Assembly (NCBI GenBank): GCA_027075325.1 | Contig: JALTBN010000051.1 | Location: 154,745 to 218,744, forward strand | Length of the DNA: 64,000 bases | DNA from: Thermococcus sp. | Lineage (GTDB): Archaea > Methanobacteriota_B > Thermococci > Thermococcales > Thermococcaceae | Direction: 5' to 3' | Part shown: piece by piece, positions 24,901 through 28,545 of the stretch | Layout of the letters: the number at the start of each line of letters is the position of its first letter | How positions within the stretch are numbered: position 1 is the first letter of the stretch | The notes under the pieces: generated by a model | What the model saw: only the letters and a program-made list of their open reading frames with translations | The model's database searches: none | Told to the model about the DNA's origin: nothing | Made by a program: the position numbers and the translations under genes

Positions 24901-26121
24901 ATGATACTTCAGGTTGCACTCGATTTAACCGACATAGAACAGGCCATTTCTATAGCGGAGAAGGCCGCCCGCGGTGGCGCTCACTGGCTTGAAGTTGGAA
25001 CGCCCCTCATAAAGAAAGAGGGAATGCGCGCGGTGGAACTCCTCAAGAGGCGCTTCCCTGACAGAAAAATCGTTGCCGATTTAAAGACCATGGACACAGG
25101 AGCCCTCGAAGTGGAGATAGCAGCAAGACACGGGGCCGATGTCGTTTCCATTCTGGGGGTTGCCGACGATAAGACGATAAAGGACGCTGTTGAGGTGGCC
25201 AAGCGCTACGGAGTAAAGGTAATGGTTGACCTCATTGGAGTAAAGGACAAAGTGAAGAGGGCTAAGGAAATAGAGGCAATGGGGGTTCACTACATTCTCG
25301 TTCACACCGGGATAGACGAGCAGGTTCAAGGAAAGAGCCCCCTTGAAGACCTGGAAAAGGTCATCGGCGCGGTTAAGATACCGGTTGCAGTGGCGGGGGG
25401 ACTCAACCTGAAAACCATTCCCAGGGTCATAGAGCTCGGTGCAACGATAGTTATCGTTGGTGGTGCCATAACAAAGGCGAAGGACCCCGAAAAGGTCACC
25501 AGACAGATAATCGACCTGTTCTGGGGTGAGTACATGGAAACCATCAGGAAGGCCATGAAGGACATAGCGGAACACATTTCCGGCGTCTCCGACTCCCTCA
25601 AGCTTGAGCAGGTTCGCGGATTCGTTGATGCTATGATAGGCGCCAACAAGATATTCATCTACGGCGCCGGAAGAAGCGGTCTGGTGGGCAAAGCCTTTGC
25701 CATGCGCCTTATGCACCTCGACTTCAACGTCTACGTCGTTGGCGAAACCATAACCCCCGCATTCGAACCGGGCGACCTGCTCATAGCCATCAGCGGCTCC
25801 GGCGAGACCCAGAGCATAGTCGACGCCGCCAAGATAGCCAGGGAACAGGGCGGAAAGGTGGCCGCAATAACCTCCTACTCAAGTTCCACCCTCGGAAAAC
25901 TCGCCGACGTGGTCGTTGAGATACCGGGAAGGACAAAGGAGGATGTCCCAACCGATTACATAGCGAGGCAGATGCTCACCCAGTACAAGTGGATAGCCCC
26001 CATGGGAACGCTCTTCGAGGACTCGACCATGGTGTTCCTCGATGGCGTGATAGCCCTTCTCATGGCCACATTCCAGAAGACAGAAAAGGACATGAAAAGA
26101 AAGCACGCTACTCTGGAATGA
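24901..26121 (+). CDS. bifunctional 3-hexulose-6-phosphate synthase/6-phospho-3-hexuloisomerase
   Basis: N-terminal HPS domain (LQVALDLTDIEQAI) fused to a SIS-type PHI domain (IFIYGAGRSGLVGKAFAMRLMHLDFNVYVVGE). Confidence 0.95.
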   Translation: MILQVALDLTDIEQAISIAEKAARGGAHWLEVGTPLIKKEGMRAVELLKRRFPDRKIVADLKTMDTGALEVEIAARHGADVVSILGVADDKTIKDAVEVAKRYGVKVMVDLIGVKDKVKRAKEIEAMGVHYILVHTGIDEQVQGKSPLEDLEKVIGAVKIPVAVAGGLNLKTIPRVIELGATIVIVGGAITKAKDPEKVTRQIIDLFWGEYMETIRKAMKDIAEHISGVSDSLKLEQVRGFVDAMIGANKIFIYGAGRSGLVGKAFAMRLMHLDFNVYVVGETITPAFEPGDLLIAISGSGETQSIVDAAKIAREQGGKVAAITSYSSSTLGKLADVVVEIPGRTKEDVPTDYIARQMLTQYKWIAPMGTLFEDSTMVFLDGVIALLMATFQKTEKDMKRKHATLE

Positions 26122-26160: not shown

Positions 26161-26862
26161 ATGCCAGTACTTGTTCTTCTTCGACACGGTGAAAGCCTCT
26201 GGAACAGGTTGAATCTCTTTACCGGCTGGGTTGACGTTCCCCTCAGCGAGAGGGGAATCCAGGAGGCATTGAGAGCTGGGGAACTCTTGAGGAGATGGCG
26301 CTTTGACGTCATCTTCACTTCCGAGCTCGTAAGGGCCATCCAGACCGCGATGCTGGCGATGGCGGAGAGTGAAAGGGTCCCCGTTATACTCCACAATGGT
26401 AAGATGGGGGAGTGGGGCAGGATACACGGAGAAGATGGAAAGGGATTCATACCCGTAATCAAGAGCTGGCGCCTCAACGAGCGCTACTACGGTGAGCTCC
26501 AGGGATGGAACAAGGATCGCGCAAGAGAGGTCTTTGGGGAGGAGCAGGTTCATCTCTGGAGGAGAAGCTACGATATTGCCCCGCCAGGAGGAGAAAGCCT
26601 CAAGGATACCGCGGAGAGAACGATACCGTTTTTCAAGGGGAGACTCCTGGCAGCACTGGAGGAGGGAAAGAACGTCCTCGTCTCCGCCCACGGAAACAGT
26701 CTCAGATCAATGGTGATGTACATAGAGGGACTCACAAAGGAGGAAATTCTGCGCCTCAACATCCCCACGGGAGTACCGCTGGTTTACGACTACATCAATG
26801 GGAAGCTCGTGAGGAGGGGATACCTAACCGAAAGGGGCTATGAAAAAGATTTGGGTCTGTAA
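26161..26862 (+). CDS. phosphoglycerate mutase/histidine phosphatase family protein (GpmA-like)
   Basis: LLRHGESLWNRLNLFTGWVDVPLSERG, SAHGNSLR. Confidence 0.9.
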   Translation: MPVLVLLRHGESLWNRLNLFTGWVDVPLSERGIQEALRAGELLRRWRFDVIFTSELVRAIQTAMLAMAESERVPVILHNGKMGEWGRIHGEDGKGFIPVIKSWRLNERYYGELQGWNKDRAREVFGEEQVHLWRRSYDIAPPGGESLKDTAERTIPFFKGRLLAALEEGKNVLVSAHGNSLRSMVMYIEGLTKEEILRLNIPTGVPLVYDYINGKLVRRGYLTERGYEKDLGL

Positions 26863-26903: not shown

Positions 26904-26942
26904 CATGAAAGGTTTTATTAAGAGGGTAACCCACTCTGAAAT

Positions 26943-27707
26943 GTGGGGAGACAGGTGCTGGGGTTCACCCACGTTTTCACGGGGATAGGAAAAACGGGTG
27001 GAATTGTCGTCGACGGCGTGTCTTCGGACGTTGTTAAGGTTAGAATAGACCCCGGCCGCTACATTCTGCGGACCGAGAAATATCGCGAGAGAATCCGGTC
27101 ATTTTTCTCGGCCCTCCCTGAGCGTTCCATCGTCTGGATTGTCGCCGAGGACAGGCCAGTAAACATTGAAATCCTCAACATCATCTCCAGGAGTGTTCCG
27201 GAGGATACCATAAGGCTGGCTTACATATTCACCCCCCAAAGGGAGCTCGTTAATGAGAAGAAACCGGAATGGGCGGATTCCTTCGAGACGGTCTTCTACG
27301 ATTCACTGTGGGAATTTCTGCGTCAGGATGTGCCCCTGGTTGAGGCATACAGAAGAGCCGCGGAGACCATCGCACGGGCCTTCACGTATCTTCACACAAA
27401 CCTTGAGGGGAGAATGTTAATAAACGTCGACTACGCCGATTTCTTAACCGTAACCGGAGGCGGCAACGTTGGGATTCTCAGGTTGCTGGACAGGATAGAC
27501 TTCGACTGGCACTGGGGTCTGTGGGACAGGGGAATGGTGGTGACGCTCGTTGGTGATGACGTATCCCTAAAAGAAGCTCACTCGGTGCTTGAACGGTTCC
27601 AGGAGCTCCTTCGGGAAAAAGATATAATCTGGGGGATGGTGGTCGATGGAAACCTCAGAGGGAAGGCACAGGTGCTGGCACTGCTGGTTAAGAAATGGGG
27701 GGAGTAA
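26943..27707 (+). CDS. divergent FtsZ/tubulin-superfamily protein lacking the GGGTGTG motif
   Basis: LEGRMLINVDYADFLTVTGGGNVGI resembles the FtsZ T7-loop region; DVSLKEAHSVLERFQELLREKDIIWGMVVDGNLRGKAQVLALLV resembles the FtsZ C-terminal domain. Confidence 0.65.
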   Translation: MGRQVLGFTHVFTGIGKTGGIVVDGVSSDVVKVRIDPGRYILRTEKYRERIRSFFSALPERSIVWIVAEDRPVNIEILNIISRSVPEDTIRLAYIFTPQRELVNEKKPEWADSFETVFYDSLWEFLRQDVPLVEAYRRAAETIARAFTYLHTNLEGRMLINVDYADFLTVTGGGNVGILRLLDRIDFDWHWGLWDRGMVVTLVGDDVSLKEAHSVLERFQELLREKDIIWGMVVDGNLRGKAQVLALLVKKWGE

Positions 27708-27709
27708 CA

Positions 27710-28357
27710 ATGGTAAAAGCGATTCTCTTTGATATAGACCACACACTGCTAACCGAGGAACCCTTGATGATGCTGTTCCTGCCCCAGGTTTACGAAAAAC
27801 TGGCAAAACAGAGGAACATCAACAAGGAGGAGGCCAGGAACCTCTTTCTAAGGGAGATAATGGAGAGAAAGGACTCCTATGAGTGGCACGACTGGAACTT
27901 CTTCTTTGGTCTATTTAACATCGACATGAAATACGAGGACATCCTGCGGAGGTACCCGCACAAGCTCCACGTTTACCCGGATGTGCCTCCCGTCCTGGAG
28001 TGGCTTCGGAGTGAGGGCTACTCCCTGGGAGTCGTTACCAGCGGGCCTGAATATCAGCGGCTGAAGCTTGAAATAGCAGGGCTTTCAGAATACTTCGACG
28101 TTGTGGTCACAAGGGAAGACGCCGGAACCGTAAAACCGGATCCTAAGATATTCCTGCTCGCTCTGGAGGAACTTGGGGTTAAGCCTTCCGAGTCCGTCAT
28201 GGTTGGAGATTCCCTCTGGCAGGATGTTTACGGGGGAAAAAACGTCGGGATGACCTCCGTGTGGATGAACAGGGATGGAGAACGGGATGTACACCTCGCG
28301 GACTTTAAGATTCACACTATGTACGAGCTGAGGAAGGTGCTGGAGGTGATTGGATGA
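27710..28357 (+). CDS. HAD-superfamily hydrolase
   Basis: AILFDIDHTLLTEE, VTSGPEYQRLKLE, KPDPKIFLLALEELG, MVGDSLWQDVYGGKNVGM. ORF track starts at 27695; the ATG at 27710 is preferred. Confidence 0.9.
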   Translation: MVKAILFDIDHTLLTEEPLMMLFLPQVYEKLAKQRNINKEEARNLFLREIMERKDSYEWHDWNFFFGLFNIDMKYEDILRRYPHKLHVYPDVPPVLEWLRSEGYSLGVVTSGPEYQRLKLEIAGLSEYFDVVVTREDAGTVKPDPKIFLLALEELGVKPSESVMVGDSLWQDVYGGKNVGMTSVWMNRDGERDVHLADFKIHTMYELRKVLEVIG

Positions 28358-28545
28358 GGGGGAAGGAGATATTCTCCGGGGAAGGAGTTTTCGTGGAGTT
28401 TAAGGAAAGGGAAGTGGAACTTGAAAACGGCCATAAGCTGAAGCACAGGAGCGAGGAGCCGACGGAGCTCTGGTGGAAGCTCAAAGAAGCCATAAAAGGT
28501 AAGAAGGTTCGGATCGTCGCCTACGAAGCTGGTGAGGGCGAATGA
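28354..28545 (+). CDS. small conserved-looking hypothetical protein (63 aa)
   Basis: Overlaps both neighbours in a co-directional operon. Confidence 0.55.
   Translation: MRGKEIFSGEGVFVEFKEREVELENGHKLKHRSEEPTELWWKLKEAIKGKKVRIVAYEAGEGE

Follow-up and report, generated by a model that had tools for sequence, protein, structure and literature searches.

Organization of the locus

We analyzed a stretch of 64,000 nucleotides, hereafter the window. The genome that it lies in is Thermococcus-like and comprises 2.30 Mb in 135 contigs, with contamination estimated at 5.7%. An open reading frame of 254 codons at 26943..27707 encodes an FtsZ-like protein; this and all features described below lie on the forward strand. 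We coined the label FZL for this 'pseudo-FtsZ' gene. Based on an alignment of orthologues, translation probably starts at the GTG at 26955 (residue 5), since Met stands at this residue in 49 of 57 same-genus orthologues; the product would then comprise 250 residues. Inspection of the sequence revealed a putative BRE/TATA-like archaeal promoter element, GAAAGGTTTTATTAA, ahead of the gene (26907..26921).

The conserved upstream partner of FZL (24901..26121) encodes a bifunctional hexulose-6-phosphate synthase/phosphohexuloisomerase, HPS-PHI (NCBIfam NF041755, 545 bits, above the cut-off). The conserved downstream partner, encoding a HAD-family hydrolase (27695..28357; TIGR02253, above the cut-off), overlaps FZL and is followed by a gene for a 63-residue orphan protein (28354..28545), which belongs to no Pfam family and is conserved in the cluster. 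HPS-PHI, FZL, HAD, and the orphan are contiguous in 74 context loci where the sequence extends, in most cases overlapping or standing a few bases apart. Farther downstream, the genes (D-glutamate-cyclase-like, HD, NusA-like, and AspRS) are common to most Thermococcus and rearranged in other genera. Between HPS-PHI and FZL, the window contains a 2,3-bisphosphoglycerate-dependent phosphoglycerate mutase-type gene (26161..26862; PRK01112-like, 312.7 bits, cut-off 320). Apart from the window, just two relatives (L064 and L065) have this gene there, a pattern that suggests a recent insertion.

Homology of FZL to FtsZ

Searches with the single FZL sequence yielded a modest signal. The protein matched NCBIfam ftsZ (TIGR00065) in two stretches with E = 1.4e-6 and 27.9 bits, under the equivalog cut-off of 295.2 bits, and its closest PDB sequence was M. 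jannaschii FtsZ1 (E = 2.6e-4). The FtsZ C-terminal domain claimed in an earlier note on this DNA is real: hhalign and the alignment place it at residues 182-252 (27486..27698), with H9 deleted and no tail, though the match to Pfam FtsZ_C is sub-threshold (E = 0.0029, 18.3 bits, cut-off 27). Across the family, the signal was consistent. Thus, NCBIfam ftsZ was matched by 40 of 41 diverse members, the FZL family profile found M. jannaschii FtsZ with E = 7e-7, and hhalign returned a probability of 94% with both FtsZ1 and FtsZ2 of the same genome. FZL is a true relative of FtsZ.

The AlphaFold2 model, built with 57 orthologues as input, had a pLDDT of 87.9 and a pTM of 0.87; it was weakest at the N-terminus and next at the T7 loop, where residues 158-160 fell below 50. 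In a Foldseek search of the PDB, all 50 of the 50 matches listed were FtsZ (best E = 6.9e-12), with TM-scores of 0.59-0.73 on the query and r.m.s.d. values of 5-7 Å among these matches. The latter probably reflect the deletions and the domain angle. The comparison with FtsZ and CetZ, which the earlier note had named as a check, favors FtsZ, and the outcome by which the note would have been refuted, no match to the tubulin/FtsZ fold, did not arise.

Two other identities within the superfamily were rejected. CetZ, a tubulin-superfamily paralogue in the same genomes as FZL, was matched by hhalign at an insignificant 2.3% probability (E = 0.02), as against 94% for FtsZ1 and FtsZ2; unlike FZL, it keeps T4 and has another form of T7 (TLDASD here). 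The FtsZl-1 and FtsZl-2 proteins (Tubulin_2) are divergent prokaryotic FtsZ-like proteins (PMC2875224), and the corresponding model, PF13809, matched only one of 41 FZL members, with E = 0.39.

FZL is a fourth member of the tubulin superfamily in Thermococcaceae. PF00091 proteins occur in every Thermococcaceae genome searched, and the Pfam Tubulin model (PF00091) has three matches in the window's genome, FZL not among them. A major survey of the superfamily used this model (PMC9871819), and surveys so built do not see FZL. A survey of CetZ reported that T. gammatolerans and strain AM4 alone have one further protein of the tubulin superfamily, which is highly divergent (PMC9856176), a distribution that does not match a family-wide gene. 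Our literature search found no description of the FZL family; annotation in subscription journals, arCOG, or databases may exist beyond its reach.

Loss of the nucleotide-binding and accepting face

The anatomy of FZL was derived from alignment with FtsZ1 and FtsZ2 of the same genome and from a 46-sequence alignment. The protein retains S1-H1-S2-H2-S4-H3-S5-S6-H7-T7-H8-S7-S8-H10-S9-S10, and thus shares with the archaeal cell-division GTPases FtsZ2 and FtsZ1 not only the fold but the order of its elements, together with the N-x-D-x-x-D of T7 and the I-I-W-G of S9. Unlike these proteins, it escapes the Pfam Tubulin model and has no N-terminal extension, no S3 or T3, no glycine loop at T4, no H9, and little of H4/H5. 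There is no C-terminal linker or tail either: FZL ends at strand S10 and W252, whereas FtsZ1 and FtsZ2 of the same genome run on. In archaea, this part of FtsZ serves to bind SepF.

The GTP-site loops are remnants or replacements. T1 (residues 14-19, 26982..26999) preserves a G-x-G-x-x-G that aligns with the GVGGAG of FtsZ, and the T1 Asn has become mainly Arg or Lys in the family. In T2 (residues 36-40, 27048..27062), alignment columns and a HMMER comparison with M. jannaschii FtsZ indicate that N/D-P-x-Y-Y has replaced N-T-D-x-Q, such that Asp46 (S. aureus numbering) is A, G, S, or T and Gln48 is Tyr. At the GGGTGTG position of T4, reported missing in the earlier note, there is indeed an eight-column deletion relative to same-genome FtsZ1 and FtsZ2, and none of 91 distinct FZL sequences contains T4 or a T4-like glycine stretch. 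The site (residues 68-75, 27144..27167) now reads E/D-D/N-K-x-x-N, with N74 present in 90/91. The T5 Arg (Arg143, S. aureus numbering) is deleted. In the S6/T6 segment, VFYDSLW (residues 117-123, 27291..27311) stands where FtsZ has I-P-N-D-K-L, the T6 Asn being Tyr in 91/91. Finally, the H7 Asp is Ser, Ala, Thr, or Gly; beside it, position 136, where FtsZ has its guanine-stacking Phe, holds Phe or Tyr in every sequence. FZL therefore lacks the guanine and Mg/phosphate contacts of FtsZ provided by T1 Asn, T2 Asp, T5 Arg, T6 Asn, and H7 Asp (columns 21, 38, 119, and 140; T5 deletion). The earlier statement that FZL has no GTP site is borne out by the losses in T2, T3, T4, T5, T6, and H7, but it overlooked the T1 glycines (G14 and G16, 91/91; G19, 89/91), which alone among the T1-T6 motifs survive. 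No functional GTP site was found elsewhere in FZL.

The same losses bear on assembly. In FtsZ filaments, the lower subunit accepts its neighbor through T2 Asp46, H2 Gln48, T3, T5 Arg143, and the nucleotide (PMC8936486, PMC5414002). S. aureus numbering (D46, Q48, R143, N208, D210, D213) was mapped using our alignments and published structures (PMC8936486). On this numbering, FZL has lost the accepting-face assembly residues D46, Q48, R67, and R143 (PMC8936486). In S. aureus FtsZ, D46A alone or R143Q alone stops assembly (PMC8936486), so FZL should not accept a neighbor. FZL has shed most features that a subunit requires to receive a neighbor on its GTP face.

Retention of the presenting face

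The surface through which the upper subunit of an FtsZ filament makes contact consists of T7, S9, and the loop before H10 (PMC8936486, PMC5414002). FZL holds on to these features presented to the neighbor's GTP. The T7 catalytic-loop motif noticed earlier is present as N161-V-D163-Y-A-D166 (27423..27440), with N161, D163, A165, and D166 invariant in 91/91 distinct orthologues. Given 46 invariant positions in 248, the chance that the three named positions (N161, D163, and D166) are all invariant is p ~0.006. A chance origin of the motif was ruled out by the profile, the fold, and this conservation. Similarly, strand S9, K-D-[IV]-I-W-G, has five invariant residues (91/91), and L209, just before H10, is present in 91/91. 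Overall, invariant positions were denser in residues 128-252 (30/125) than in residues 5-127 (16/123; p = 0.03).

Conservation is not confined to the presenting face. The most conserved segment of FZL is TVFYDSLW (S6/T6, residues 116-123), by the old guanine pocket, and T5, which adjoins the old nucleotide pocket, carries a P-x-x-E-L with invariant P98, E101, and L102. The invariant T5 and the highly conserved T6 indicate that simple decay does not account for the former top face. Some other ligand might still bind, given the retained T1 glycines and the conserved polar loop that has replaced T4.

The C-terminal domain also contains a family-specific loop, W-H-W-G-x-W (residues 189-194, 27507..27524), of which W189, W191, G192, and W194 occur in 91/91. 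It lies near the region of the deleted FtsZ H9, and its tryptophans, all three of them invariant, hint at a new contact surface.

Distribution and origin

A phylum-wide search of 116 genomes found FZL in approximately 90 of 95 Thermococcaceae genomes, which span several genera. Other families had none; the matches there, class-wide as well as phylum-wide, were ordinary FtsZ-length ORFs. When 85,488 species genomes were scanned by pattern, Thermococci records alone came back; as the scan depends on conserved short peptides, it would miss distant kin. Phage records and viral contigs contained no match, and a viral or mobile origin was dropped. The FZL-less genomes G002, G016, G049, and G053 are fragmented assemblies. 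In G016, HPS-PHI breaks off at a contig end, and G053 has only part of it; for G002 and G049, the search for its orthologue came back empty. An assembly gap is thus a likelier cause than gene loss.

In a tree based on 240 columns, FZL formed a single clade (100/100) whose nearest relative, across a very long branch and with moderate support, was Thermococcaceae FtsZ2 (83/94). The latter also has the local sequence around T7 in common with FZL (S-M-V-N-I-D-F/Y-A-D, as compared with M-L-V-N-I/V-D-Y-A-D in FZL). FZL likely arose by duplication of FtsZ2 in the ancestor of Thermococcaceae. Since then, identity within the family has fallen to ~42%, and FZL diverges faster than FtsZ1 and FtsZ2 (e.g., 50-65% versus 76-92% identity for comparable species pairs). 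The dN/dS relative to the nearest relative was 0.06, corresponding to strong purifying selection. Next to its intact FZL copy (L063), one genome (G043:C2) has a second (L062) that contains both a frameshift and an in-frame stop.

FZL as a proposed one-sided partner of FtsZ

The active site of FtsZ and tubulin is composite, with GTP from one subunit and T7 from the next. A search of the window's genome for canonical FtsZ, a second check named in the earlier note, found FtsZ1, FtsZ2, and CetZ alongside FZL, which makes one-sided docking on GTP-bound FtsZ the simplest mechanism. We estimate a probability of about 0.5 that FZL is a one-sided partner of GTP-bound canonical FtsZ and not a filament subunit, a reading in which docking, GTPase stimulation, and an effect on division are inferred. 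Specifically, FZL would dock via T7 on the exposed GTP of FtsZ2 and/or FtsZ1, either in a monomer or at a filament end. Once docked, it would provide the catalytic Asp residues, with possible hydrolysis of GTP in trans, and would present no GTP face to the next subunit. FtsZ filaments would consequently be capped, shortened, or destabilized, such that FZL may be a negative or pacing regulator of the ARC3 kind. One-sided docking fits the pattern of loss better than the earlier note, which had proposed it, could see, because the assembly residues of the accepting face are lost too. It has been proposed that bacterial FtsZ filaments grow at the end with the exposed T7 (PMC8936486, citing Du et al. 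2018). The exposed GTP face would then be the shrinking end, and FZL would act there as a cap or else sequester monomers of GTP-FtsZ.

Known FtsZ regulators offer partial analogies. ARC3, a plant protein with an FtsZ-like domain, inhibits the assembly of chloroplast FtsZ (PMC5471200). Like FZL, ARC3 is FtsZ-like and coexists with canonical FtsZ1 and FtsZ2, and by analogy it serves as our working model; unlike FZL, it occurs in plants alone and has a MORN region at its C-terminus, and it is therefore of separate origin. SulA and MciZ are comparable to the proposed FZL in that their one-sided binding to FtsZ blocks filament growth, although their folds are unrelated to that of FZL. SulA binds the T7, or bottom, face of FtsZ. 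MciZ binds this face as well (PMC8936486), whereas FZL would bind the opposite GTP, or top, face. If the one-sided reading is correct, FZL would be a division regulator formed by subtracting one face from FtsZ. A natural subunit comprising only the T7 half, retained by a whole archaeal family, offers a ready means of telling docking, catalysis, and end-capping apart; T. kodakarensis, in the group that carries FZL, is genetically tractable.

Alternative functions

Against docking, the neighbors of FZL are sugar-phosphate genes, not division genes. Accordingly, the main rival holds that FZL is a metabolic accessory, whether scaffold, chaperone, or regulator, of HPS-PHI and HAD in the ribulose-monophosphate pathway that supplies pentose; it would have no role in division, and T7 would shape the central fold. 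In these archaea, HPS-PHI yields ribulose-5-phosphate for nucleotide synthesis (PMC12628685). The linkage in the 74 loci persists even in genera with rearranged surroundings, and in FZL-less genomes the block is broken at contig ends or wholly missing. The T7 residues could indeed be kept for folding or for metal binding. However, an accessory role leaves unexplained both the invariance of the catalytic N-x-D-x-x-D in a family diverged to ~42% identity and the retention of S9 and the pre-H10 residue. Moreover, the phosphoglycerate mutase gene stands between FZL and HPS-PHI in the window and the two relatives, and a promoter-like element lies ahead of FZL in the window. On balance, we consider a purely metabolic function rather unlikely, yet a serious competitor to one-sided docking.

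A second alternative starts from the conserved former nucleotide-side positions (T5 P-x-x-E-L and T6 FYDS), for which a bare cap offers no explanation. FZL might be a re-purposed binder of another phosphorylated ligand, a possible one being a sugar phosphate handled by the neighboring enzymes, using the T1 glycines, E/D-D-K-x-x-N, E101, and D120 as its site, with T7 completing the site in trans within a homodimer or homopolymer. G14, G16, E101, Y119, D120, and S121 are invariant (91/91), N74 nearly so, and the aromatic residue at position 136 matches the guanine-stacking Phe of FtsZ. In contrast, T1 and the T4-replacing loop are conserved only to an average degree for the family, and T2, T3, and R143, required to seat a neighbor's T7, are lost. 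We regard this possibility as doubtful.

More speculative still, and in our estimation improbable, is a combination of these ideas in which FZL is an end cap that activates the FtsZ GTPase in trans and whose rebuilt former nucleotide pocket (T1 glycines, E/D-D-K-x-x-N, T5 Glu, and T6 Asp) serves as a sensor for a sugar phosphate, pentose or hexose, from the HPS-PHI pathway. Cell division in Thermococcaceae would thereby be tied to the supply of nucleotide precursors. Such a putative link would unite the conservation of T5 and T6, the room for a ligand, and the metabolic operon. Finally, that FZL is a decaying, functionless FtsZ2 duplicate, as its many deletions and fast divergence might suggest, is refuted by the low dN/dS, the 46 positions invariant in 91 sequences, and its retention at a fixed place in nearly the whole family.

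The orphan protein of the cluster

An AlphaFold2 prediction for the 63-residue orphan had a pLDDT of 84 and suggested a beta hairpin and a helix. A link to SepF or the PRC-barrel was sought using this fold, which showed only two strands and a helix at a pTM of 0.58. The orphan occurs throughout Thermococcaceae and has 19 invariant columns in 21 sequences, including the motif E-x-P-T-x-L-W-W-x-L-K-E.
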